A program made the translations under genes and the position numbers. Below, piece after piece: positions 12,647 to 33,544 of a DNA stretch of 64,000 nucleotides (position 1 is the first letter of the stretch; each line of letters begins with the position of its first letter). The notes below the pieces were generated by a model. The model saw nothing but the letters and a program-made list of their open reading frames with translations, was not told the origin of the DNA and ran no database searches. Origin of the DNA: Algoriphagus sp. (GTDB lineage: Bacteria > Bacteroidota > Bacteroidia > Cytophagales > Cyclobacteriaceae); contig NZ_JABXIN010000013.1 in the NCBI RefSeq assembly GCF_013373065.1, positions 1-64,000 on the forward strand, read 5' to 3'.

Positions 12647-13081
12647 ATGAGCGAATTCTTCCAGAAAAAACTTAGTCTTCCTCCATTTCCTAGTGGATAT
12701 CATTTAATCACTGATTTAGTGGAGGAAGGAATTCCCGAAATCCGGCAGATTCAGACGGGGTTTTTGCAGGTTTTTATTCAGCATACCTCAGCGGCTTTGA
12801 CTATTAATGAAAATGCTGATCCAACCGTTAGAAAAGACTTCCAAACCTTTGTAAATGAGTTAATTCCAGAAAATTATCCACGCTTTATCCACACGTATGA
12901 AGGGCCGGATGATATGCCTGCGCACATTAAAGCCAGTTTTTTTGATTCCAGCCTTCAAATTCCCATTTCCGGTGGAAAACTTGCGCTTGGCATTTGGCAA
13001 GGGATTTATCTCTGTGAATTTCGAAGATATGCCTCCCCTAGAAGCTTGATTTTGACCGCTTTTGGGACTGTTAATAAATGA
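12647..13081 (+). CDS. yjbQ: YjbQ (UPF0047) family protein
   Basis: The 144-residue protein matches the UPF0047 fold: FIQHTSAALTINENADPTVRKD, the AHIKASFF segment and the C-terminal GIWQGIYLCEFR. Conserved His/Asn/Asp residues form the presumed active site. Family members have been linked to low-level thiamine-phosphate synthase activity, but the physiological role is unclear. ATG 12647 is chosen because the family N-terminus begins shortly before FQKKLSL. The longer open frame upstream overlaps the lipoprotein gene. Confidence 0.88.
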   Translation: MSEFFQKKLSLPPFPSGYHLITDLVEEGIPEIRQIQTGFLQVFIQHTSAALTINENADPTVRKDFQTFVNELIPENYPRFIHTYEGPDDMPAHIKASFFDSSLQIPISGGKLALGIWQGIYLCEFRRYASPRSLILTAFGTVNK

Positions 13082-15366: not shown

Positions 15367-16362
15367 GGTCTGGGATTTCCAAATAGGGCTTCCATTTTAC
15401 TGAGGATTCTTCCTTTGCGGTAGCTATTCCAGGTTTTTTCGATTTTTCCCTCTGGACTGATTAAAATATAGGTGGGCCAAACTTTTACTTCATAAAGCTG
15501 GGTAACCTTCCCGGTTTTATCCCAGAGATCCGTCCAGCGAATCAATTCTTTGTGCTTTTTGGCTCCATTGAGCCAAATATCCCGACTTTTATCATTCCAA
15601 ATACTTATTACCTCGAGGCTTGCACCAAATCGGCTAATAATCTCGCTTATTTCCGGAAGTGCATCCAGGCATGGTTTGCATCCGGTAAAGGAAAATTCCA
15701 AAAAGGCAGTATTTTCCTTCAAAATCATTTAAAGAAACCTGTTTTCCTTCTCGACTTTCTAGAGAAAAATCAAGGCTTTCCGACCCTTCTTTTACTTCAA
15801 AGGACATCCCAGTTAATTCGAAATTAGAGGCAAAGCGTTTAAAGGAATTTAAATTTTTTAGCTCAGGAGAAACTTGATTAAGTGCCTTCTCTAATTCCTG
15901 CTTTGAAAAAATTTCAGATTTCGAAATAAGCGCATTCAAGGCGACTTCTTTGTCCAGATTTTCCAGAATTAACGCCTTTTTCTTTTCAATTCCGCTTTTC
16001 TCAATCTCACGGGAGAGTTCTTCAAAAGGATGCTTCTGATCAATTTCTAATGTGGATAAGTCATTCACCTGACCACTAATTTGATATGTTCCATCCCCAA
16101 CCCAGAATTCTCGTTGGTCAATTATTTTACCGTTGTTTTTTATGATATAAAAGGAAATCTGGGAAGGTTTTTCCAATTTCGCCCTCAATTCCCCTTCAAA
16201 CTTATTCACACTTTGATAAACCTGCTCGTCAAAACTGGTTCTCAAAACATCTTTTCCCGAAAGCGAACCTTCTAAATCAATGATGATTTGAGTTTCTTGA
16301 GCTGCTACGGGTAAATAAAGAATATAAAATAAGAGAGGAAAAAGCAGTCTAGACTTTATCAT
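15363..16362 (-). pseudogene. TlpA-like thiol-disulfide protein, frameshifted near its active site
   Basis: Two minus-strand frames together encode one exported thioredoxin-like protein. Frame one (16362-15634) has a signal peptide, an N-terminal DUF4369-like region (about residues 20-130) and the lead-in VSLNDFEGKYCL. Frame two (15728-15363) carries FTGCKPCLDALPEI, with the CxxC redox motif, and the thioredoxin C-terminal half with the cis-Pro region (VKVWPTYILI). Removing one base from the five-base A run at 15700-15704 (plus strand) joins them as CLLEFSFTGCKPC and makes exactly 333 codons. As sequenced, the gene would give an inactive product without CxxC. The indel could be real or an assembly error. 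Confidence 0.85.
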
Positions 16363-16407
16363 AAGTAAAGCTAAATTATTGAATAGCTTTACGGGAAATT
16401 TTGTTTG

Positions 16408-18816
16408 TTAGTTTTTACTAGCCTCAATTCTAACCTTTGCTCCCGTCATCAGGATTCGTCGATAGCCTTGTTGAGTATCCGAACTTACCTCCTTGCCTAA
16501 GATTTTTACTTTGGAATAACTTTCAGGAATTTCAATCGATAAGCCCCATTTCTTTTCGCTTTGTTCTACTTCAATGACAAGTTCCCCGTTTGATTTTTGA
16601 TAGCTGAGTGAAATTTCATTTTCTCCTACATGTACTTTTTGAATGGAAGCATTTTCCCAAGAGCTAGGCATCTGAGGACGAATGTGGATAACTTTATTGC
16701 CTGTATCGGGCTGTATACCAAAGAATTGAGTCACCATGGGAACCGCATAACTGTACAAATTCCAGGCTTGGGTAAACATTCCATAATCTGGCGATACTTC
16801 GTAAATGGAGCCGGGCAAGGCAAAGCCAAAGCTTCGTGTCATTCGTTTTAGGTAATCTAGTGCTGCATCGGGATTCCCATACTTGTTCTCCCCGATGGCA
16901 GAAACACCGGTAGGCAAAGTCATAACGGCACCGGTATAGGAAAAGGCCTTACTTCCTGCAAACGAACCATCCTCATTTTCTGCGCTTTCATCCCGGTCGA
17001 TTCCAGTGACAAATACGCCAAATGGATTGGTATATTTCCTTCCCGTCTCTAAGGCAATTTTAGCTTTTTCGGGATCAGCAACCCCCACTTCCATGGGTGT
17101 ATTGACCACCCAATTGTGATAAAGGACAAATCCTCTCTTTTTATCGTTGGGCAATGTGGATAACTTCGCTTTGGTGGCTTTTAGTTCTTCCACTGCCCAA
17201 GGTTTGTTTAGTGTATCGGCTCGGATGATAGCTCCATCAATAAGATGAAGCGCATCTTCCACTGTACCGATAAAATCTGCATAGCTTCCAAATTCATCAA
17301 CCCAGAAATCGGAATTGATTTTCTCAGCCAAGGTATCTGCTGTCTGTTGATAACTTTCAGAAAGGGCTGTTTTTCCCAAAATTTCAGCCATTTTGGAGGC
17401 ATCTGAAAATGCTTTGTAACTATAAGCCGCCACATCAATCATTTCTGATTTCAAGCCATGGATTTCCATCATGCCATAGCCGTCAGCTAATAGATTCCCA
17501 TCCGAATCATTTTCCTCCAAAAGCCAATTCAGACCTTTTTCCGCAGATGGAAAATACTTCTCCAAAAATTCCCGGTCCCCGGTCCAACGATAAACTTCCC
17601 AAATAGTGGATACCCACTGGGGAGTTTCGTTGATATTTCCTGGATTGAAAACCACGCCATTGGTAGAAGCTTCATGAATGATGCGCCCATTGCCATTGGT
17701 TTTTTCGGAAAGATTGTGGATTAACGCTATGGTACTGTAAACCAGATCTTTTTGTCCCGTTGCCAGCAAACCTTGAATTGTGTATTCACTATCCACACCA
17801 AAATACCAGGGATAATCCGGTAGTCCTGCTCCAAACCCTCTTCCCATTTCAGGCACTTCTCTGACTAGCCACTGCGTGTTGTATTTCACCCATTCAAAGG
17901 CTTTTTGGAGTTCTGGGTCTGGAATTTCAATTTTTGATTTTTCAAAAACCGCTTGAAAATTGCTTTTCTTCGAAAACCAATCAGATTGGAGATTATTCCG
18001 CAAGTCTGCTAAGGTCTCCAATGCCTTCAATTCGCTTTCTGTAGAGCCTGCAATGAAAATCGGGAAAATCAATGTTGAGTTTCCGGGTATAGTCAAATTT
18101 ACCCCAAAGGCAGCTTTCTTGCCCTTGCCTAATGATTCGAAGGAACAAATCTCCTCTCTTGGAGTAAGGGGAATTCCTGCTTCACTTCCCCAAACCGTAT
18201 ACCAATCGTTTCCTTGGTCTTTTGCGGTAAAGGTACCTGTCAATTCATTGAAGTTAATCTCATCTTCTAGATCGATCATTCCGCTTCTATCCCCCAACCA
18301 AACGGGTCGAAGATCCACTTGTGCCACCCATGAAAAATCGATGCTTTTCTCCTCAGAGGATCCATTTTCAAAACGATAAAAAATAGCCAAGCCTTCCCTA
18401 CCATCTGGAACGAAGTGAAGCCGGTCTATTTTTAAGTCTGAAGCAATAGTTCCGAAATGGATCCGGTTAGAGAATGGATAATTGATGAAATTTTGGCCTT
18501 GATTTAGACAAATTGCTTGCCCTTCTATTTCAACTTGGGCAGAAAAACCATCCATTAATTTGATGGGATGCATCCAAATGCCACCCATTTCTCCCTCCAC
18601 ATGCCACCCTAAATCCGGGAAACTCCCATCTTGATGCCCAATCAAATAAACCCGATCTCCAGCCGTGACGAATGGAGAGTTTAAATAATTTGCATTGCCT
18701 GAAAGCCCTTCCTGATTTTCAAGATCATTAAAAAGGACCGCATAGGGATTACTTTGCTCTTGGCATGAGGCCAATAGTAAAGAGATTAAAAAAAGATAAA
18801 CAAGTGTATTTCGCAT
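16408..18816 (-). CDS. Lipoprotein with (alpha/alpha)6 glycosidase-like domain
   Basis: The 802-residue product has a signal peptide and lipobox (LLLASC, Cys18), so it is lipid-anchored. An N-terminal beta-sandwich (about residues 30-280) precedes an (alpha/alpha)6-barrel (about 300-680). The barrel resembles amylo-alpha-1,6-glucosidase/glycogen-debranching and MGH1-type enzymes (GLPDYPWYFGVDSEYTIQG, TPQWVSTIWEVYRWTGD, MEIHGLKSEMIDVAAYSY). Acidic residues in these motifs are candidate general acid and base. A C-terminal beta-domain follows. The substrate is not evident, and no SusCD pair is adjacent. Confidence 0.78.
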   Translation of the reverse strand: MRNTLVYLFLISLLLASCQEQSNPYAVLFNDLENQEGLSGNANYLNSPFVTAGDRVYLIGHQDGSFPDLGWHVEGEMGGIWMHPIKLMDGFSAQVEIEGQAICLNQGQNFINYPFSNRIHFGTIASDLKIDRLHFVPDGREGLAIFYRFENGSSEEKSIDFSWVAQVDLRPVWLGDRSGMIDLEDEINFNELTGTFTAKDQGNDWYTVWGSEAGIPLTPREEICSFESLGKGKKAAFGVNLTIPGNSTLIFPIFIAGSTESELKALETLADLRNNLQSDWFSKKSNFQAVFEKSKIEIPDPELQKAFEWVKYNTQWLVREVPEMGRGFGAGLPDYPWYFGVDSEYTIQGLLATGQKDLVYSTIALIHNLSEKTNGNGRIIHEASTNGVVFNPGNINETPQWVSTIWEVYRWTGDREFLEKYFPSAEKGLNWLLEENDSDGNLLADGYGMMEIHGLKSEMIDVAAYSYKAFSDASKMAEILGKTALSESYQQTADTLAEKINSDFWVDEFGSYADFIGTVEDALHLIDGAIIRADTLNKPWAVEELKATKAKLSTLPNDKKRGFVLYHNWVVNTPMEVGVADPEKAKIALETGRKYTNPFGVFVTGIDRDESAENEDGSFAGSKAFSYTGAVMTLPTGVSAIGENKYGNPDAALDYLKRMTRSFGFALPGSIYEVSPDYGMFTQAWNLYSYAVPMVTQFFGIQPDTGNKVIHIRPQMPSSWENASIQKVHVGENEISLSYQKSNGELVIEVEQSEKKWGLSIEIPESYSKVKILGKEVSSDTQQGYRRILMTGAKVRIEASKN

Positions 18817-18939
18817 TTTTAAACTAGTCCGATTCGGGGTAAAATGAGTTTTCAGATAAACTGTGAATATAAAAAATCACGTCATTCTTAGAATTTAAAT
18901 TTTTTAAAACACTTCGATTCCACAGCCTGTTGGGACTAC

Positions 18940-20373
18940 ATGAATTTCAAAAGAATCATTGTTTGGTTTCGAAATGATCTTCGAACTAGAGATCAAGAGG
19001 CACTTTATAAGGCTTGCCAAACCGGGGCTGAAGTGATTCCGGTCTATTGTTTTGATCCTCGTCATTTCGAAGCAACTGTGCTTGGATTTCCGAAGACTGG
19101 GAACTATCGAACAAAATTTCTTTTGGAATCCATTCAAGACTTGCGAAAGAACTTACAAGATCTGGGAGGAAATCTGGTTTTATTGAGGGGTAAACCTGAG
19201 TTAGAGGTAATCACCTTTGCGGAGCGGATTGGAGCTGATGCAATTTTCTTCTCAGAAGAAGTAACCGCTGAAGAGCGAAATGTGGATAAGCCTTTGGAGA
19301 AAGCAGCCTGGAGTAAAGGTATTGCTACAGAAAGCTTTTGGCAGAGCACCTTGTATCATATCGATGATCTTCCATTTCCAGTAGCTCAAATTCCTGAAGT
19401 TTTTACGCAGTTTCGAAAATCTGTGGAAAAAATGGCGGCTGTTCATTCCACTTATCCACAGCCAAGTTCCATTAATTTTCCCTCGAAAGATCTTATTCCT
19501 TTGGAAGGTACACTTCCTGATATTACTACTTATGGTTTGGAGGAGCCTGAGGCCGAGCACCGGTCGGTGATGCAGTTTGATGGTGGAGAAAGTGCTGGTC
19601 TCAGGCGAATCCAGTCCTATTTTTGGGAAGAGGATAGATTAAAATTCTATAAGGAGACTAGAAACGGGCTTATTGGTTCCGATTATAGTTCCAAGTTTTC
19701 GGCATGGTTAGCACTGGGATGTATTTCTCCTCGAACTGTTTATGAGGAGGTAAAGCGCTACGAAAAAGAGCGGAAAAAGAACCAGAGCACTTATTGGTTG
19801 GTATTTGAGCTGATTTGGCGGGATTATTTTCGTTTCATCTGTAAAAAACACGGCAATCAAGTTTTCCACATTGGTGGCATCAAACATCAAGAGGACTCCT
19901 GGCGAAGGGATAATGCTGATTTTCAGCGTTGGTGTGAGGGGCAGACGGGAGTTCCTTTTGTTGATGCCAATATGCGGGAATTAAAATACTCTGGTTTCAT
20001 GTCGAATCGGGGCAGACAGAATGTGGCTAGTTTTCTGGTCAATGATTTGGGAATTGACTGGACGTGGGGAGCAAGCTATTTCGAAAGTCAATTGATCGAT
20101 TATGATGTTTGCTCCAATTGGGGAAATTGGATGTATGTAGGAGGCGTTGGGAATGACCCTCGAGAAAATCGCTACTTCAATATTTTGCGTCAGGGTAAAA
20201 ATTACGACCGAAATGGAGATTATGTGCGTTTGTGGATTCCTGAACTTTCCAAACTGAACGGATTTGGAATCCATCATCCTTGGGACTTATCCACAGCTGA
20301 ATTGAAAAGTGCTGGAGTGATTTTGGGAGCTACTTATCCACAGGCTATGGTTGATTTAGAGGGAGTATATTAA
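18940..20373 (+). CDS. cry: Cryptochrome DASH
   Basis: This flavoprotein of the photolyase/cryptochrome family typically binds FAD and an MTHF antenna and repairs pyrimidine dimers in single-stranded DNA. The N-terminal antenna domain begins IIVWFRNDLRTRDQEAL. The FAD-binding region contains GESAGLRRIQSYFWE, YSSKFSAWLALGCISPR, ELIWRDYFRF and WGNWMYVGGVGNDPR, all characteristic of the DASH clade. At 477 residues the length is typical. It is a single gene with several DnaA boxes inside it. Proximity to the light-regulated carotenoid locus (9 kb away) fits a photoprotection theme, but no CarH-type half-site is visible in its 123-nt AT-rich upstream gap. Confidence 0.95.
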   Translation: MNFKRIIVWFRNDLRTRDQEALYKACQTGAEVIPVYCFDPRHFEATVLGFPKTGNYRTKFLLESIQDLRKNLQDLGGNLVLLRGKPELEVITFAERIGADAIFFSEEVTAEERNVDKPLEKAAWSKGIATESFWQSTLYHIDDLPFPVAQIPEVFTQFRKSVEKMAAVHSTYPQPSSINFPSKDLIPLEGTLPDITTYGLEEPEAEHRSVMQFDGGESAGLRRIQSYFWEEDRLKFYKETRNGLIGSDYSSKFSAWLALGCISPRTVYEEVKRYEKERKKNQSTYWLVFELIWRDYFRFICKKHGNQVFHIGGIKHQEDSWRRDNADFQRWCEGQTGVPFVDANMRELKYSGFMSNRGRQNVASFLVNDLGIDWTWGASYFESQLIDYDVCSNWGNWMYVGGVGNDPRENRYFNILRQGKNYDRNGDYVRLWIPELSKLNGFGIHHPWDLSTAELKSAGVILGATYPQAMVDLEGVY

Positions 20374-20391
20374 AAAAATGATTGTGGATAA
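20287..20391. other. Three evenly spaced DnaA boxes
   Basis: Perfect boxes start at 20287, 20334 and 20383, spaced 47 and 49 nt. The third is inverted and lies in the 19-nt gap between the convergent cry and small membrane-protein genes, next to an AT-rich run. This is the densest point of the larger DnaA-box cluster. Confidence 0.6.
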
Positions 20392-20392
20392 G

Positions 20393-20662
20393 TCAATTTG
20401 ACTTGCTACGTTTCTGTTTAATTTTTTCGCGAAAATTTGGATTGGGTTTCCAAAAAAGAAAAAACTCAAATGCAGCCCAAAATAGGATATAGAATAAAAG
20501 TGATAAATAGGATTCTGGTTGTTCAAGAAAACTCCAATCAAATCCTAACTTTAATCTGTAATTGCCTAAGGTTACGATCCAATTGACCACACCAACCAGA
20601 ACCGTCCAAATCCAAAATGTTTTTAGAAAAAGCGTAAAATCAGGGAATCGCTCTTTTTTCAT
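20393..20662 (-). CDS. Small two-helix membrane protein, unknown function
   Basis: An 89-residue protein with two hydrophobic helices (about residues 12-32 and 50-70) and a basic C-terminus (KIKQKRSKSN). I recognise no family. It lies 4 nt downstream of the serine-hydrolase gene and so is probably the last gene of the minus-strand cluster that begins with the VOC protein. Confidence 0.55.
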   Translation of the reverse strand: MKKERFPDFTLFLKTFWIWTVLVGVVNWIVTLGNYRLKLGFDWSFLEQPESYLSLLFYILFWAAFEFFLFWKPNPNFREKIKQKRSKSN

Positions 20663-20666
20663 TTTT

Positions 20667-21899
20667 CTAATAATCCATTTTTAATTCCCCAAAATCCGGC
20701 TTCAAAATCTTTTTGCGTCCTAATTCCAATTGATACAAATATTCCCCTAACTCTGCAAAGAATGGTAAGCCAATCGTCTCGGTTTCATAGGTATCATCGT
20801 TCAACGTTTGATTCTTATTGGTGTAAATAATCGCTGAGACAAAGAATTCCACTCCGTTTTCATAATCCACAAAATAGGTTCCGTCAATTAGGTGTCCATA
20901 AGCCCAACCGGTTTTATTAAAGATTCGGAACCGATCAGGAATGGGACTTTTGTCAGTTCCAAACTTGAAAAATTTGGAATAACTGTCGTAGAAATCGGGA
21001 CCCTCATACTTTGGAAAATCGGATTCACCCGGTAGCATACTCATGTATGTTAGGATGAATTTTCGATGCTCATCATTCAAATGAAAGCGCTCATCCTCCA
21101 TAAAGGATCGAGGAAAAATGATGCGTTGTACTACCCCATGAAGGTCTGACAATGCAAATTTGTTTTTATAGGTAAACTCCATCCCTTTTTCAATCAAGGA
21201 ATCACCTGCATAGTAAGCTAGTCCAATAACTGGTCGCTCTGGGTTGGAATAGATACTTTCCGTCTTTCGTTCTGGAATTTCAAGGATTACTTCTCCGGAT
21301 TTATCCACAAATCGAATTGGATTGAAATAGCGATTTTCAATTTCGTTTGCTGGATAACTTAATCGATGGTTGATAACGGTATGATTCAGACCTTTTTCAG
21401 CTAATTTTTGATTAATATAATCCTGACCCAATAGCTCATAAAGGCGATTGTATGCATCATTGTCAGATACCAATAGGATTTTCTTGATGTAATGCCCAAT
21501 GCTTGGAAGCGAGTCTGCTGATGAGTTATCCACATTAGCGGGTAATTGGGAAGGGCGAACCGAATCAGTCAGCATGGGGGTATTCAAAGTGAGGTTATCC
21601 ACATTTTGTTCTTCCAGCCATTCTAGAGCTAAAATGGCTACTGGAAGTTTGACCGTTGAAGCGGGATAAAAGTATCGTTCATCATCTAAGTTGAATGAAA
21701 AAGTTTCGAACATAGGATTCATATGTTCATTTCGGTCAATCCTGGTGAATAAGATTTGAACCTGGTACTTATCCACACTATCTAGGACCTTTTGAAGGAT
21801 GGGATAAGGTTCTATACCATCTTCAAAGGGTACTGGCTCTTTGGGGGAACAAGAAAAAATCAATAAAGCAATCGTAAAGAAATAAAGAAAGATTCGCAT
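20667..21899 (-). CDS. Beta-lactamase-fold serine hydrolase lipoprotein
   Basis: The 410-residue protein has a signal peptide and lipobox (LIFSC, Cys17). The class-A-like active-site motifs are in order: SxxK at Ser81-Lys84 (PASTVK), SDN (VSDNDAYNRLYELLG) and KTG (NKTGWAYGH). It therefore belongs to the beta-lactamase/penicillin-interacting superfamily (beta-lactamase2-like). The canonical Omega-loop ExxLN is not evident, so true beta-lactam hydrolysis is doubtful. A peptidoglycan- or ester-directed hydrolase is equally possible. Four DnaA boxes (21301, 21526, 21595, 21769) lie within this gene. Confidence 0.8.
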   Translation of the reverse strand: MRIFLYFFTIALLIFSCSPKEPVPFEDGIEPYPILQKVLDSVDKYQVQILFTRIDRNEHMNPMFETFSFNLDDERYFYPASTVKLPVAILALEWLEEQNVDNLTLNTPMLTDSVRPSQLPANVDNSSADSLPSIGHYIKKILLVSDNDAYNRLYELLGQDYINQKLAEKGLNHTVINHRLSYPANEIENRYFNPIRFVDKSGEVILEIPERKTESIYSNPERPVIGLAYYAGDSLIEKGMEFTYKNKFALSDLHGVVQRIIFPRSFMEDERFHLNDEHRKFILTYMSMLPGESDFPKYEGPDFYDSYSKFFKFGTDKSPIPDRFRIFNKTGWAYGHLIDGTYFVDYENGVEFFVSAIIYTNKNQTLNDDTYETETIGLPFFAELGEYLYQLELGRKKILKPDFGELKMDY

Positions 21900-21905
21900 G
21901 CTGTT

Positions 21906-22964
21906 TTATGAAACTAGGTTATCCAGAATATCGGCTAAGAATTGAATATCTTCTTTTTCGTGAAAAGCTGAAAGAACAATCCGATTTACCTTTGGACTAT
22001 GGGAGTGTGGATAAGGAAAACTGGAGGTTATGATTCCTGATTTTTCAAGCTGTTCAACCCAGAGATCTTTTGTGTATCGAAAAATCGGAAAATCTGCATA
22101 TCCCACCACTTGAGGGAGAAAGGCTGTTCGCTCATAGAAATATTGGATGTTTTCTTTGAGCTGTTCTTGAGCAACCTCATAGGTATGCTGCATTTCGAGG
22201 AAGGTCTGTAGATGAGCAGGTGAACCCGGAGAGGCACCGGTAAAGAGCGGTGTTGATTGTATTTTTTCCAATTGTTGCTGATCACTCAAGACAATACCTG
22301 CGGGGAGACCCAAGCCTTTTCCAAGCGAACCGGAAACCGTCAAATGAATCGAACTGTGTTTCCATTTCGAATAGGTTCCGAAGATTCCATCTCCCACAAT
22401 TCCAAAAGCATGGGAATCATCAATCAGAAGAAATACCTTGTGTTTTTTGGCGATTTCTTGCACCCAAGCATAATCGTGTATTTCAACATGTAAGGCATCT
22501 ACCGCATTCCCAATAATTAGAATGCTCTGTGGAGACAGGCTTTCCGAAAGTTCTAAGCAGTGATTTTTCCATTGTTTAAAACTTAATTGGATACCTGCCT
22601 TAAGGCCGTCAGGGATGATTGACGGATGGGCATCGGGACCAATCCAGACTTCTTCAGATACCTCCCTTAAACTTTTCCATGCAGCAATGCCAGCTAGGTA
22701 GCCGGAACTAAACACTGCAGCACCTTCAGCTCCAGCTGATTGAGCAAAATATTCCTCAAACTCATCAAAAACCTGGAGTTGTATGTTGTTTTTGCGGCTT
22801 TGCCCAAAATTGGACCCGTATTCGAAAATATTATTGGCCAAGACGTCCAAAAAGTCTGAATTCTGAGCAATACCCAAATAGGAGGTGCCACTGAAATAGA
22901 AGTATTCCTTTCCTTCTACTTCAATCAACCTTCCTATTCCGGTATTTATATTGTGTTTTTTCAA
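21906..22964 (-). CDS. Alpha-oxoamine synthase-like PLP-dependent enzyme
   Basis: This fold-type I PLP enzyme of the 8-amino-7-oxononanoate synthase/2-amino-3-ketobutyrate ligase family normally condenses an amino acid with an acyl-CoA. VFSSGYLAGIAAW, the PLP-ring region IDDSHAFGIVG and the Schiff-base lysine in SGSLGKGLGLPAG are visible. At 352 residues it is about 40 shorter than typical members, and the usual GSRLxxG glycine motif is replaced by GQSRKNN. No ATG is available. The start is a TTG 6 nt after the stop of the VOC gene and in the same frame. The substrate is unknown; no biotin genes are nearby. Confidence 0.8.
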   Translation of the reverse strand: MKKHNINTGIGRLIEVEGKEYFYFSGTSYLGIAQNSDFLDVLANNIFEYGSNFGQSRKNNIQLQVFDEFEEYFAQSAGAEGAAVFSSGYLAGIAAWKSLREVSEEVWIGPDAHPSIIPDGLKAGIQLSFKQWKNHCLELSESLSPQSILIIGNAVDALHVEIHDYAWVQEIAKKHKVFLLIDDSHAFGIVGDGIFGTYSKWKHSSIHLTVSGSLGKGLGLPAGIVLSDQQQLEKIQSTPLFTGASPGSPAHLQTFLEMQHTYEVAQEQLKENIQYFYERTAFLPQVVGYADFPIFRYTKDLWVEQLEKSGIITSSFPYPHSHSPKVNRIVLSAFHEKEDIQFLADILDNLVS

Positions 22965-22970
22965 GTAGGA

Positions 22971-23393
22971 TTATTTCGCAAAAATCTGTGATTCGTCTTG
23001 GAATGATTTAAACTCCAAAGCATTTCCACAGGGGTCCAAGAAAAACATGGTGGCCTGCTCTCCTACTTCTCCTTTGAATCGAATATAAGGTTCGATCACA
23101 AAGTCGATTCCATGGGCCTTGAGCTTATCTGCCAAATCATGCCACTCTTCCCAAGGAAGAATTACTCCAAAATGTCGGACAGGTACATTTTTCCCATCTA
23201 CTGCATTGGTTTTTGCTTGAGCTAATTCTTCAGGCTTGATATGCGCAGAGAGCTGATGTCCGAAGAAGTTGAAATCAATCCATTTGTCCGTGCTTCTACC
23301 AATATCGCAACCCAAAAGGTCGCCGTAAAATTTCCGGGTTTCCTCGATATCCCGAATCGGGAATGCCAGATGAAAGGGTTTAAATTGGCTCAT
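22971..23393 (-). CDS. VOC (glyoxalase/dioxygenase superfamily) protein
   Basis: Two beta-alpha-beta-beta-beta modules of the vicinal-oxygen-chelate fold are seen ([23 protein letters not shown] and [20 protein letters not shown]). Candidate metal ligands are His in FHLAF, His in RHFGV and Glu in GNALEFKSF. Its reaction cannot be assigned; glyoxalase-, dioxygenase- or epimerase-type chemistry is possible. I prefer ATG 23393 (MSQFKPF). A longer start at 23423 would leave only 9 nt to the divergent patatin gene. It heads the minus-strand cluster. Confidence 0.8.
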
Positions 23394-23432
23394 ATTGTGT
23401 ACATTCGTTTGTAAATTTTTCATCCTAAAGAT

Positions 23433-24338
23433 ATGGCAAAAAAGCAGAAAGTTTCATTGGTTTTGAGTAGTGGTGGAGCTCGCGGATTAGCCCATGTCGG
23501 TGTCATTGAAGAATTGGAGGAAAGAGGCTTTGAAATTGCTGAAATTGCGGGTTGCTCCGCTGGTGCACTGGTTGGCGGCATGTATACTGCAGGCAAGCTG
23601 GCAGAGTTTAAAAACTGGATATGCAATCTGGATCGGATTGATGTCTTTTCCTTGATGGATTTCACCTTCTCTAGCCGAGGTTTTATTAAGGGAGAGAAAG
23701 TCTTTTCCGCGTTGAAAAAGGTGGTCCAAGATTGTCAAATTGAAGATCTTCAGATTCCATTTTCCTGCAATGCTGTAGATGTCCATAGTGGGAAAGAGGT
23801 GGTGTTTTCAAAAGGAAGTTTGTTAACCGCCATTCGAGCTTCCGGTAGTATTCCTTCTGTGATTATTCCGGCAAAGCAAGGGAAACAGCAATTGATTGAT
23901 GGAGGTGTATTAAATCCAATTCCGATCTCACTCTTAAAAAAAGCGGAAAATAACCTGGTGATGGTGGTGGATGTAAATGGACTCGATCAGGATTATGTTT
24001 CGCCTCCAAAAAAGGATTCCGAAGGAAACCGCTTTATTTCGCTTCCAAAATGGCTTTCTGAATACCGAGATAAGATGAAGCAATATTTTCCAGATGATGA
24101 AGAGGAAGAAGAAAAGCCCACCTCTTTTTCAGCCTTGGATTTGGTGAGCCGTTCCTTTGATTTGCTGCAGGACCGCTATTGTGAAATGGTGATCGCTCAA
24201 AATAATGTGGAGGTTTTAGTCAAGATTGCACGAAAGCAGGCAGGAACTTTAGAATTCCATCGATCGGCAGAAATGATCGAAGTAGGCCGAATTAAAGCAA
24301 AAGAAGCCTTAGATAAATGGGAAAATGGAAATAGCTGA
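23433..24338 (+). CDS. Patatin-like phospholipase
   Basis: Patatin-family lipid acyl hydrolase with a Ser-Asp dyad. The oxyanion loop [12 protein letters not shown], nucleophile motif GCSAG (GxSxG, about residues 42-46) and catalytic DGG ([11 protein letters not shown]) are all present. There is no signal peptide, so it is probably cytosolic or membrane-peripheral. An acidic DDEEEEEKP insert lies near residue 220. It overlaps the following methyltransferase gene by 14 nt, suggesting translational coupling. Confidence 0.9.
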
Positions 24339-24939
24339 GCTAAATCGCCTGCTGGGCAATGTGGATATCTATCTTTTGGACCAAATTTTAAAAGGACGGT
24401 TTTCCAAGGAAATGCGAATCCTGGATGCGGGCTGTGGAGAGGGAAGAAATACGGTATATTTTATCAACCAAGGCTATCAGATTTTTGGTATTGACCCCAA
24501 TGAACTGGCCATTCAATATTGCCGATATCAGGCAAAAAGCCTTCAATCTGAATACGATGTTCATCGCTTTCAAGTTGGGCGGCTTGAGGAAATCCCTTTT
24601 CATGCAGAGGCCTTTGATGCCGTTATTTGTTCAGCAGTGCTGCATTTTGCGGAAAGTGTGGATAACTTTTGGCAAATGATTTCAGAAATCCACCGAGTTC
24701 TAAAACCAGGAGGAATCTTTTGGTTTCGGATGTGTACCGGCTTTGGCGGGATTTTAGAGCAATCCAAACCTTTGGGAAAGGGTAAGTTCTTGCTTCCAGA
24801 TGGAACAGAGCGCTTTGTTTTGAGTAATGAGCAACTGAAAGAATTAGAGCAAAAGGGGTTTCGGTTCTTAGAAGCTACCAAAACCGTTTTTGTCCTTGAT
24901 CAGCGGGAAATGGGTGTTTTTTTGCTAGAAAAAATATAA
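24325..24939 (+). CDS. Class I SAM-dependent methyltransferase
   Basis: A 204-residue Rossmann-type methyltransferase. Motif I is ILDAGCGEGRNTVYF, the acidic strand-2 residue is in FGIDPNE, and motif IV lies around AVICSAVLHF, followed by HRVLKPGGIFWFRM. The pattern matches the Methyltransf_11/25 group (UbiE- or tellurite-resistance-like). The substrate cannot be inferred. It overlaps the patatin gene by 14 nt and precedes the TRIC gene by 27 nt. One DnaA box (24657) lies inside it. Confidence 0.85.
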   Translation: MEIAELNRLLGNVDIYLLDQILKGRFSKEMRILDAGCGEGRNTVYFINQGYQIFGIDPNELAIQYCRYQAKSLQSEYDVHRFQVGRLEEIPFHAEAFDAVICSAVLHFAESVDNFWQMISEIHRVLKPGGIFWFRMCTGFGGILEQSKPLGKGKFLLPDGTERFVLSNEQLKELEQKGFRFLEATKTVFVLDQREMGVFLLEKI

Positions 24940-32059: not shown

Positions 32060-33544
32060 ATGAATCAAAAACATGTGGTGGTGATCGGTTCTGGTTTTGC
32101 CGGACTATCGGCAGCCACCCATCTAGCAGAGGATAGTAGTTGTAAAATCACCCTTTTAGAAAAAAACAGTACCCCCGGTGGTCGAGCCCGAAAGTTCGAG
32201 CACCAGGGGTTTGTTTTTGACATGGGGCCCAGTTGGTATTGGATGCCGGATGTATTTGAAGACTATTTTGCCAAGTTTGGGAAAAAGCCTTCGGATTACT
32301 ACGATTTGGTCCGATTGGATCCTTCCTATGCGGTGGTCTACGGCAAAGACCGAATTTTAGATATTCCGGCCAATTTGGATGAATTTAAATCCATGTTGGA
32401 TCAGTTGGAACCCGGTGCTGGAAAGCAACTCGATAAATTTTTAGAACAAGCCAAATACAAATACGAGGTTGGAATTCATGATTTGGTCGAAAAGCCAAGC
32501 CGTTCCCTTTTGGAATTCGCTTCCCCTGGTTTATTGGTGGATGTGGTTCGGATGGACATATTCCAATCCATGGCGAAGCATATACGGAAATTTTTTAAGT
32601 CTGAGGAAATTATCCGCTTGATGGAATTTCCGGTTTTGTTCCTAGGAGAGACCGCTGAAAATATTCCTGCACTTTATTCCTTGATGAACTATGCTGATAT
32701 CGCTTTGGGAACTTGGTATCCCAAAAAAGGAATGCATGAGATTATCAAAGGAATGGTGGCTCTAGCAGAAGAAAAGGGTGTAGAGATCCGCTTAGATGCT
32801 GAAGTGGAGGAAATCGAAATTGAAAACGGCTTGGCAAAATGGGTTCGCCTGGTTTCAGGTGAAAAAATTGAGGCGGATGTCATCGTAGCGGGAGCAGATT
32901 ACCATCATGTGGATAAACACCTCGTCAACCCTAAATACAGCAACTATTCAGATGACTATTGGGACAAGCGTGTGATGGCCCCTTCCAGTTTGCTTTTCTA
33001 TTTGGGAATTGATAAAAAATTAAAAAATCTACGCCATCATAATTTGTTTTTTGATGAGCCACTAGGGCCACATGCTGATGCGATTTATAAAAATCCGAGA
33101 TGGCCTGAAAAACCGCTCTTTTATGCATCGGTTCCTTCAATGACTGATCCAACGGTAGCTCCCGAGGGGAAAGAAAATATGTTCCTGCTAGTTCCTTTAG
33201 CACCGGATTTGGAAGATGGTGAAGAGATGCGGGAAAAGTATTTTGACATTATCATGGATCGTTTGGAAGAGATTACGGGACAAGAAATCCGGTCTCACAT
33301 TATCTACAAACGTTCCTATGCGCATTCAGATTTCAAATCAGACTACCATGCATTCAAGGGAAATGCGTATGGACTGGCAAATACCTTGTTGCAAACGGCT
33401 ATTTTGAAGCCGTCTTTGAAAAACAAAAAGGTTAGAAATTTGTATTACACAGGCCAGTTAACCGTTCCCGGTCCCGGCGTACCACCCTCCTTGATTTCAG
33501 GAGGAGTCGTTGCTCGGGAAGTGATCAAAGAAAACAATCTGTAA
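32060..33544 (+). CDS. crtI: Phytoene desaturase CrtI
   Basis: FAD-dependent membrane-associated desaturase converting phytoene to lycopene. The N-terminal dinucleotide motif VVVIGSGFAGLSAATHLAE, the GGRARKFEHQGFVFDMGPSWY region and the C-terminal bacterial-type signature (LYYTGQLTVPGPGVPPSLISGGVVA) are complete. The 494-residue length is normal. It is the only CrtI-type gene in the window, so a separate 3',4'-desaturase (CrtD) would have to lie elsewhere. crtB follows after 15 nt. Confidence 0.96.
   Translation: MNQKHVVVIGSGFAGLSAATHLAEDSSCKITLLEKNSTPGGRARKFEHQGFVFDMGPSWYWMPDVFEDYFAKFGKKPSDYYDLVRLDPSYAVVYGKDRILDIPANLDEFKSMLDQLEPGAGKQLDKFLEQAKYKYEVGIHDLVEKPSRSLLEFASPGLLVDVVRMDIFQSMAKHIRKFFKSEEIIRLMEFPVLFLGETAENIPALYSLMNYADIALGTWYPKKGMHEIIKGMVALAEEKGVEIRLDAEVEEIEIENGLAKWVRLVSGEKIEADVIVAGADYHHVDKHLVNPKYSNYSDDYWDKRVMAPSSLLFYLGIDKKLKNLRHHNLFFDEPLGPHADAIYKNPRWPEKPLFYASVPSMTDPTVAPEGKENMFLLVPLAPDLEDGEEMREKYFDIIMDRLEEITGQEIRSHIIYKRSYAHSDFKSDYHAFKGNAYGLANTLLQTAILKPSLKNKKVRNLYYTGQLTVPGPGVPPSLISGGVVAREVIKENNL

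Follow-up and report, generated by a model that had tools for sequence, protein, structure and literature searches.

DnaA boxes grouped outside the replication origin have been described in several bacteria. In Escherichia coli, the datA locus, a non-coding element (PMC12371093) of about 1 kb with five boxes, restrains initiation, needs IHF and promotes the hydrolysis of ATP-DnaA (PMC5295017). In Bacillus subtilis, the joint removal of six oriC-proximal DnaA-box clusters leads to early initiation, according to one part of PMC5295017; elsewhere, the same paper rates the clusters as not significant. A DnaA-box cluster in Streptomyces is said to repress untimely initiation (Smulczyk-Krawczyszyn 2006, per PMC10950094), and the boxes of E. 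coli are over-represented around oriC, which has been argued to favour titration (Olivi 2025, PMC12371093). The subject of this study is an array of 14 perfect copies of the DnaA box TTATCCACA, spread over 8.6 kb of a 64-kb stretch of Algoriphagus DNA (the window, i.e. C30:1-64000, the start of contig C30 of a draft genome). The array is probably an origin-proximal reservoir for the titration of DnaA, written into the codons of its host genes, with binding and function deduced from the sequence.

As in B. subtilis, where the clusters are taken to bind DnaA at a distance from oriC (PMC5295017), the boxes are situated outside the origin. Unlike the six separate clusters of that species, however, they form a single dispersed array in another phylum, with 13 of the 14 boxes in genes and with an extended motif. 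The array host likewise belongs to a different phylum from Streptomyces. The array resembles datA in lying outside oriC and in having boxes of the high-affinity type, and the TTATCCACA box in the datA stretch shares the AG extension considered below. It does not, however, share the compact, non-coding character of that 1-kb element, but is 8.6 kb long, mostly coding and irregular. The E. coli enrichment is a broad maximum, observed in windows of 10 centisomes (also 2 and 6; PMC12371093), in contrast to the discrete array, for which there are codon-level tests of selection and a varied placement among lineages. DnaA-box clusters as such are already known. A dispersed six-gene array with codon-level selection, an extended motif and lineage-varied placement was not found in the open-licence papers that were searched, and within that literature the dispersed, coding, relocatable form is apparently new.

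The window contains 17 exact matches to TTATCCACA. Fourteen fall at 16051-24665, and all but one of these at 16051-22014, in agreement with the count given in an earlier note on this DNA. Dinucleotide shuffles of all 64 kb (n=100) yielded a mean of 0.62 copies and at most 3. It is apparent that this is a cluster of dense consensus boxes outside oriC, well beyond chance. Three copies are located elsewhere in the window (9917, 12885 and 32908), rather than the two (9917 and 32908) previously reported. The copy at 12885 has TTATCCACG directly upstream in the same orientation (12874-12893), and A[CG] precedes neither of them. The whole draft genome (3.645 Mb, 38 contigs) contains 55 copies versus 34 of the reversed control pattern, and the next densest group is one of only three copies in 106 bp (C30:247499-247604). 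Scans for local repeats and skew covered 364 kb of C30, on which TTATCCACA was the top locally repeated 9-mer, with 14 copies in 8.7 kb (runner-up, 8). The earlier description of the boxes as occupying six genes and one gap, on both strands and in three frames, was borne out, as was the C or G that directly precedes 13 of the 14 (the exception is 21301). A strand bias, as reported for E. coli, was also looked for in the array and was absent (7/14 each way).

When synonymous codons were shuffled in the host genes, a mean of 1.17 and a maximum of 4 boxes were obtained in 1000 trials, versus the 13 real ones. Retention was determined in 28 relatives, which the authors chose from 80 photolyase loci with the addition of genomes G021 and G039. 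Before the test, each was classed as box-rich or box-poor from earlier box counts. Of the alignable boxes, 133 of 289 are kept in these relatives, compared with 3-11% of the remaining 9-mers in the genes concerned. The counts take in boxes 9917 and 12885 wherever their genes aligned, and related sequences do not contribute to them independently. The 23 box-rich relatives keep 131 of 245 boxes; A. formosus, A. marincola and HL-49, all closely related to the window's genome, keep 11 of 12 each. Codon conservation was assessed in 51 photolyase sequences. For synonymous conservation, the three codons of the box at 20287 rank at the 97th-99th percentile and those of the box at 20334 at the 99th, 94th and 98th; the last codon of the latter, which the box covers only in part, ranks at the 30th. 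It seems that selection at the level of the DNA maintains the array boxes. The earlier note's preference for DNA-level selection over protein conservation is upheld by the shuffles and by overall retention. Loss of boxes at a neutral rate, which it had suggested looking for, is not what the box-rich relatives show, and the outcome there favours selection; the five box-poor ones keep boxes at about the background rate (see below).

The position of the array relative to oriC was considered next. Throughout the 364 kb of C30, all 10-kb bins have a positive GC skew after correction for strand; the sign changes on another contig, C18, near 73 kb. At that place (C18:73204-73586), a perfect box is grouped with near-boxes, and the skew at third codon positions switches sign. 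The gene beside this group (C18:76174-78036) was taken to be mnmG from a reading of its protein, in keeping with the annotated mnmG that adjoins oriC in E. coli. By skew, mnmG and the box group, oriC of this genome is placed at C18 ~73.2-73.6 kb. In G021, the closest well-assembled relative, the counterparts of the C18 end and of the first base of the window are adjacent, about 18 bp apart. A junction of C18 with the window start, as suggested by that synteny rather than by the assembly, would have the array begin ~32 kb and end ~40 kb from oriC. The equivalent sites in G039 and G009 are at the low points of the skew, at 618.5 kb and 4399.9-4400.3 kb, respectively, as determined from sampled stretches plus filled-in stretches near oriC. 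A G009 minimum near 4570 kb was rejected as local, the gap-filled low point being at ~4394-4404 kb, beside mnmG. The box triplet at C30:247499-247604 was also discarded as a candidate oriC, because in G039 and G009 the skew changes a long way from it. Across eight genomes, the oriC candidates contain 5-9 boxes with no more than one mismatch, at most one of which is perfect; that of Cecembia rubra, with four near-boxes, is weak. The dnaA gene is remote from oriC, at C17:109421 in this genome (L003:10019-11443), i.e. on a different contig, and at 1380 kb in G039 and 3359 kb in G009 (0.76 and 1.04 Mb from oriC). No perfect box was found in the 20 kb around dnaA of this genome. The parS site is a 16-bp palindrome, TGTTTCACGTGAAACA. 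A pair of parS-like palindromes, one TGTTCCACGTGGAACA and one AGTTCCACGTGGAACA, is found beside mnmG at C18:78053 and 78087, and two exact copies of TGTTTCACGTGAAACA are found at the equivalent place in G039. The array does not represent parS/ParB sites, for the one match on C30, with three mismatches, is at 32851, outside it.

Nearness to the origin extends to the relatives. The array photolyase is 90% identical to that of a Cyclobacteriaceae metagenome-assembled genome and 81% identical to those of A. formosus and A. marincola, which places the organism in Algoriphagus or very close to it. Its distance from mnmG was measured in genomes with both genes on one contig (the others have them on separate contigs or lack an orthologue). 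In 16 box-rich relatives it is 26, 32, 33, 49, 51, 54, 56 and 57 kb in the nearer half and 59, 78, 113, 116, 119, 128, 136 and 197 kb in the farther half; in four box-poor genomes it is 91, 125, 157 and 374 kb. Three pairs of apparently identical genomes (G044/G047, G030/G054 and G028/G062) were each counted once, and for G004 (contamination 6), which has two equally scoring photolyase copies, only the copy on the contig of mnmG was used. The array is accordingly origin-proximal both in the window's genome, by the synteny join, and in these 16 relatives. Across whole genomes, too, boxes are enriched around oriC. Those less than 200 kb away amount to 24 of 49 in G039 (5.1 expected) and 30 among the 100 listed of 103 in G009 (8.3 expected). 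In A. formosus the figure is 36 of 74, against an expectation of 6.6 (distances from one contig, with boxes on other contigs counted as far).

The photolyase loci of 39 relatives (L034-L072; 720,575 bases) contain 358 boxes, whereas each of eight permuted 9-mers occurs there 4-15 times. Five loci of this set are box-poor (5 boxes in 94,302 bases); in the other 34, there are 353 perfect boxes, and single-mismatch variants are rare, the commonest being TTTTCCACA (n=72). Forty further loci (L074-L113; 665,913 bases), from cyanobacteria, other Bacteroidota and a few Cyclobacteriaceae, contain 11 boxes against a mean of 6.2; L073 is in neither group. Among 12 genus members, the whole-genome box count is higher than that of the reversed control in 11 and equal to it in the twelfth, and the corresponding figures for six order-level relatives are 67 v 46, 46 v 44, 50 v 33, 77 v 116, 39 v 33 and 26 v 25.

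Placement varies among lineages. In Aquiflexum, Belliella, Cecembia lonarensis and Mongoliibacter, the photolyase boxes are at other sites of the same gene. Cecembia rubra, box-poor at the photolyase locus, has 16 boxes at 166-196 kb and 18 at 232-264 kb, with mnmG at 151 kb of the same contig. A. sediminis, similarly box-poor, has five at 222-227 kb and four at 321-323 kb (mnmG, 186 kb), and G009, without a close photolyase orthologue, has seven at 4257-4263 kb, ~137-143 kb from oriC. Homologues of the box-bearing genes of these three genomes, some of them distant, are boxless on C18 and C30, the two contigs of the window's genome that the search covered. Distance from oriC finds no support as the sole cause of box loss, since A. 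sediminis, L059 and Lunatibacter hold only 1-2 boxes at 91, 125 and 157 kb from mnmG. Two observations may be added. In A. ornithinivorans (G055), dense groups of at least 10 and at least six boxes are present at C10:363212-369325 and 441759-444794, beyond the contig of the photolyase locus. In G009, boxes that are perfect or nearly so repeat with a period of 321 bp at C1:4682478-4684083 (L153); from their spacing, they look like a by-product of a tandem-repeat gene.

The boxes are also distinguished by the bases that precede them. The extended motif A[CG]TTATCCACA accounts for 270 of the 353 boxes in the 34 loci, whereas among the 16 boxes of box-poor and outgroup loci it is seen once; many boxes in these counts are common by descent and are not independent. 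The one-mismatch boxes of the 34 loci are preceded by A[CG] in 38 cases out of 119, and TTAT words overall in 12%. In the genome under study, the extension is present in 10 of the 14 array boxes versus 1 of 15 other boxes for which the context was read. It occurs in all five phase/orientation classes present (56-84%). The third bases of the codons concerned are strongly biased (AAG 73 v AAA 18, AAC 68 v AAT 4, GAG 25 v GAA 0, GAC 12 v GAT 2), whereas the G/C forms make up 32-34% of the codon usage of the same loci, which shows that the extension is enforced at the DNA level, at synonymous positions. Its frequency in the other box groups is 8/11, 3/5, 1/7 and 7/11 in C. rubra, 4/5 and 3/4 in A. 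sediminis, and 2/5 among the boxes listed for the group in G043. Three TTATCCACA boxes were read in E. coli K-12: one in the stretch that we take to be the location of datA and one just right of the annotated oriC, both of which are AGTTATCCACA, and one inside oriC, which is TGTTATCCACA. The AG extensions in two of just three boxes would fit DnaA as the reader.

These observations can be accommodated as follows. The consensus boxes of the array, being of the high-affinity type, would fill with DnaA first. Because the oriC candidates are mostly degenerate, with no more than one perfect box, DnaA would reach the level required there only after the array was occupied. Situated near oriC, the array would be copied soon after initiation and its capacity doubled, free DnaA would then fall, and re-initiation would be delayed. 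We infer each of the three elements of this scheme, namely DnaA as the binder, stronger binding by the array than by the oriC boxes, and the titration effect itself. Passive titration is the most likely mode; active hydrolysis at the array is less so, as the layout is irregular. The DnaA protein has a full helix-turn-helix domain IV. Hda carries a Bac_DnaA domain, and no second protein with this domain (i.e. Hda-like) was detected in the six genomes scanned, each of which gave a single match. It has been pointed out that sites near oriC suit titration since they are doubled early after initiation, and experimental evidence for the titration model in E. coli was described as still lacking before the 2025 study (PMC12371093). 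The idea of a reservoir had been raised in the earlier note; it has now gained the conservation of the boxes, the nearness to mnmG in 16 relatives, the groups elsewhere near mnmG or oriC in some array-less lineages and the shared extended motif.

Several points weigh against a titration reservoir. In B. subtilis, only the eight strongest of 269 in vitro DnaA sites were seen to be bound in vivo, and one site within a gene was unbound, perhaps through transcription (both from PMC4447404). The five box-poor relatives (A. sediminis, L059, C. rubra, M. lutea and Lunatibacter) keep 2 of 44 boxes, approximately the background level, and selection is therefore not seen in 5 of the 28. The dependence among related sequences noted above tells in the same direction. 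Codon conservation is weaker at the other two photolyase boxes (19281 and 19452), at the 74th-96th and 31st-75th percentiles, and the array boxes have no strand bias. Nearness to mnmG alone does not retain boxes, as the three genomes with distances of 91, 125 and 157 kb demonstrate, and in one group of C. rubra only one box out of seven is extended. Finally, the perfect oriC and triplet boxes, as read, are without the A[CG] extension, which suggests that the array boxes form a separate class, possibly with a reader other than DnaA.

That last point can be developed into a bolder proposal, which we consider doubtful: A[CG]TTATCCACA would be a second class of DnaA site, set apart from the oriC boxes and held in codons near oriC, that times initiation by means of a moving array; in its boldest form, the reader would be a non-DnaA protein that organises the origin domain. 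Closely related is the possibility that the motif is merely DnaA-box-like and is bound by some other protein, with a role in organising or segregating the origin domain. The difference in flanking bases between array and oriC/triplet boxes, and the occurrence of sites in genes across tens of kb near oriC, would be in keeping with this. The core, however, is a full consensus DnaA box, the extension is common to two of the three E. coli boxes read, and parS differs in motif and adjoins mnmG, so that this explanation seems unlikely.

Somewhat less probable still is an active datA-like element, in which a DnaA nucleoprotein complex would promote ATP hydrolysis beyond passive binding. Consensus boxes near the origin, some of them close together (the three at 20287-20391 are separated by 47 and 49 bp), and the AGTTATCCACA form of the box in the E. 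coli datA stretch speak for such an element. Irregular spacing and orientation over 8.6 kb, at sites that vary by lineage, are nevertheless a poor fit to a fixed complex, and an intergenic triplet with fixed spacing (described below) suits the role better. DnaA also acts as a transcription factor elsewhere (PMC4447404). It is very unlikely to do so for the host genes here, 13 of the 14 boxes being in coding sequence rather than upstream, in genes of unrelated families, with other genes bearing the boxes in other lineages.

The earlier note had proposed the array as a candidate for oriC itself, for which only the high density of consensus boxes can be adduced. The array is not at the sign change of the GC skew, which is on C18 along with mnmG, the parS-like pair and the near-boxes, and in G039 the skew minimum is at ~605-625 kb and the array at 551-563 kb. 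This candidate is rejected on the sequence evidence, and the skew check that the note had suggested leaves titration as the surviving half of its proposal. Some boxes coincide with peptides that recur (LST, TYPQ, VDK/VDN). The idea that the array simply follows from protein sequence, from codon usage or from a family of repeats is nevertheless refuted by the synonymous shuffles, the codon conservation at two sites, the retention, the third-base bias, and the several phases and both strands involved.

Evolution appears to have supplied a test case for titration, with boxes held at synonymous sites near oriC and with groups in other genes near mnmG in some array-less lineages. Most of the 14 boxes should be silently changeable, so that recoding of the array could leave the encoded proteins unchanged or nearly so. 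The titration model would thus be testable in Bacteroidota, in the six scanned genomes of which no second Bac_DnaA-domain protein was found. The results also suggest that a chromosome-maintenance signal may shape the codons of unrelated genes.

The individual boxes and their principal host genes are listed in Table 1. The host genes belong to unrelated Pfam families, and one of the six, the open reading frame (ORF) at 15634-16362, had no Pfam match. The label cry-DASH for the photolyase gene is that of the earlier note.

Table 1. DnaA boxes of the array and host genes, in window coordinates. The three bases preceding each box are given; extended, matching A[CG]TTATCCACA.
Feature	Position	Strand	Context
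DnaA box TTATCCACA	16051..16059	-	after GAC, extended; ORF 15634-16362(-), Leu-Ser-Thr phase
DnaA box	16683..16691	-	after AAG, extended; glycosidase gene 16408-18816(-)
DnaA box	17155..17163	-	after AAG, extended; glycosidase gene 16408-18816(-)
DnaA box	19281..19289	-	after GGC, not extended; photolyase gene; filled in 17/51 sequences, own included
DnaA box	19452..19460	+	after CAC, extended; photolyase gene; filled in 9/51 sequences
DnaA box	20287..20295	+	after GAC, extended; photolyase Leu-Ser-Thr; filled in 32/51 sequences
DnaA box	20334..20342	+	after TAC, extended; photolyase Thr-Tyr-Pro-Gln; filled in 38/51 sequences
DnaA box	20383..20391	-	after GAC, extended; sole intergenic box
DnaA box	21301..21309	+	after GAT, not extended; Beta-lactamase2-family gene 20667-21899(-)
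DnaA box	21526..21534	+	after GAG, extended; Beta-lactamase2-family gene 20667-21899(-)
DnaA box	21595..21603	+	after AGG, not extended; Beta-lactamase2-family gene 20667-21899(-)
DnaA box	21769..21777	+	after TAC, extended; Beta-lactamase2-family gene 20667-21899(-)
DnaA box	22006..22014	-	after TCC, not extended; class I/II aminotransferase gene 21906-22964(-)
DnaA box	24657..24665	-	after AAG, extended; methyltransferase gene 24325-24939(+)
Six-hairpin glycosidase (Bac_rhamnosid6H)	16408..18816	-	host gene, 2 boxes
Cryptochrome/photolyase (Pfam DNA_photolyase + FAD_binding_7)	18940..20373	+	host gene, 4 boxes
Beta-lactamase2-family hydrolase	20667..21899	-	host gene, 4 boxes

The triplet is a conserved element at C30:247447-247604 (L002:7447-7604), in which three perfect boxes have fixed spacings of 76-77 and 20 bp. 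It is also present in L117, L149, L231, L232 and L233, and a fourth box, TTATCCAC, accompanies it in five of the six aligned genomes. Its distance from oriC is ~68-266 kb. In the window's genome, it is situated in the gap between two convergent ORFs, presumably a ClC channel gene and an mtgA-like gene, and a comparison with Rfam gave no match at E 0.1. Owing to its fixed layout, the triplet would be a better candidate than the array for an active datA- or DARS-like element.

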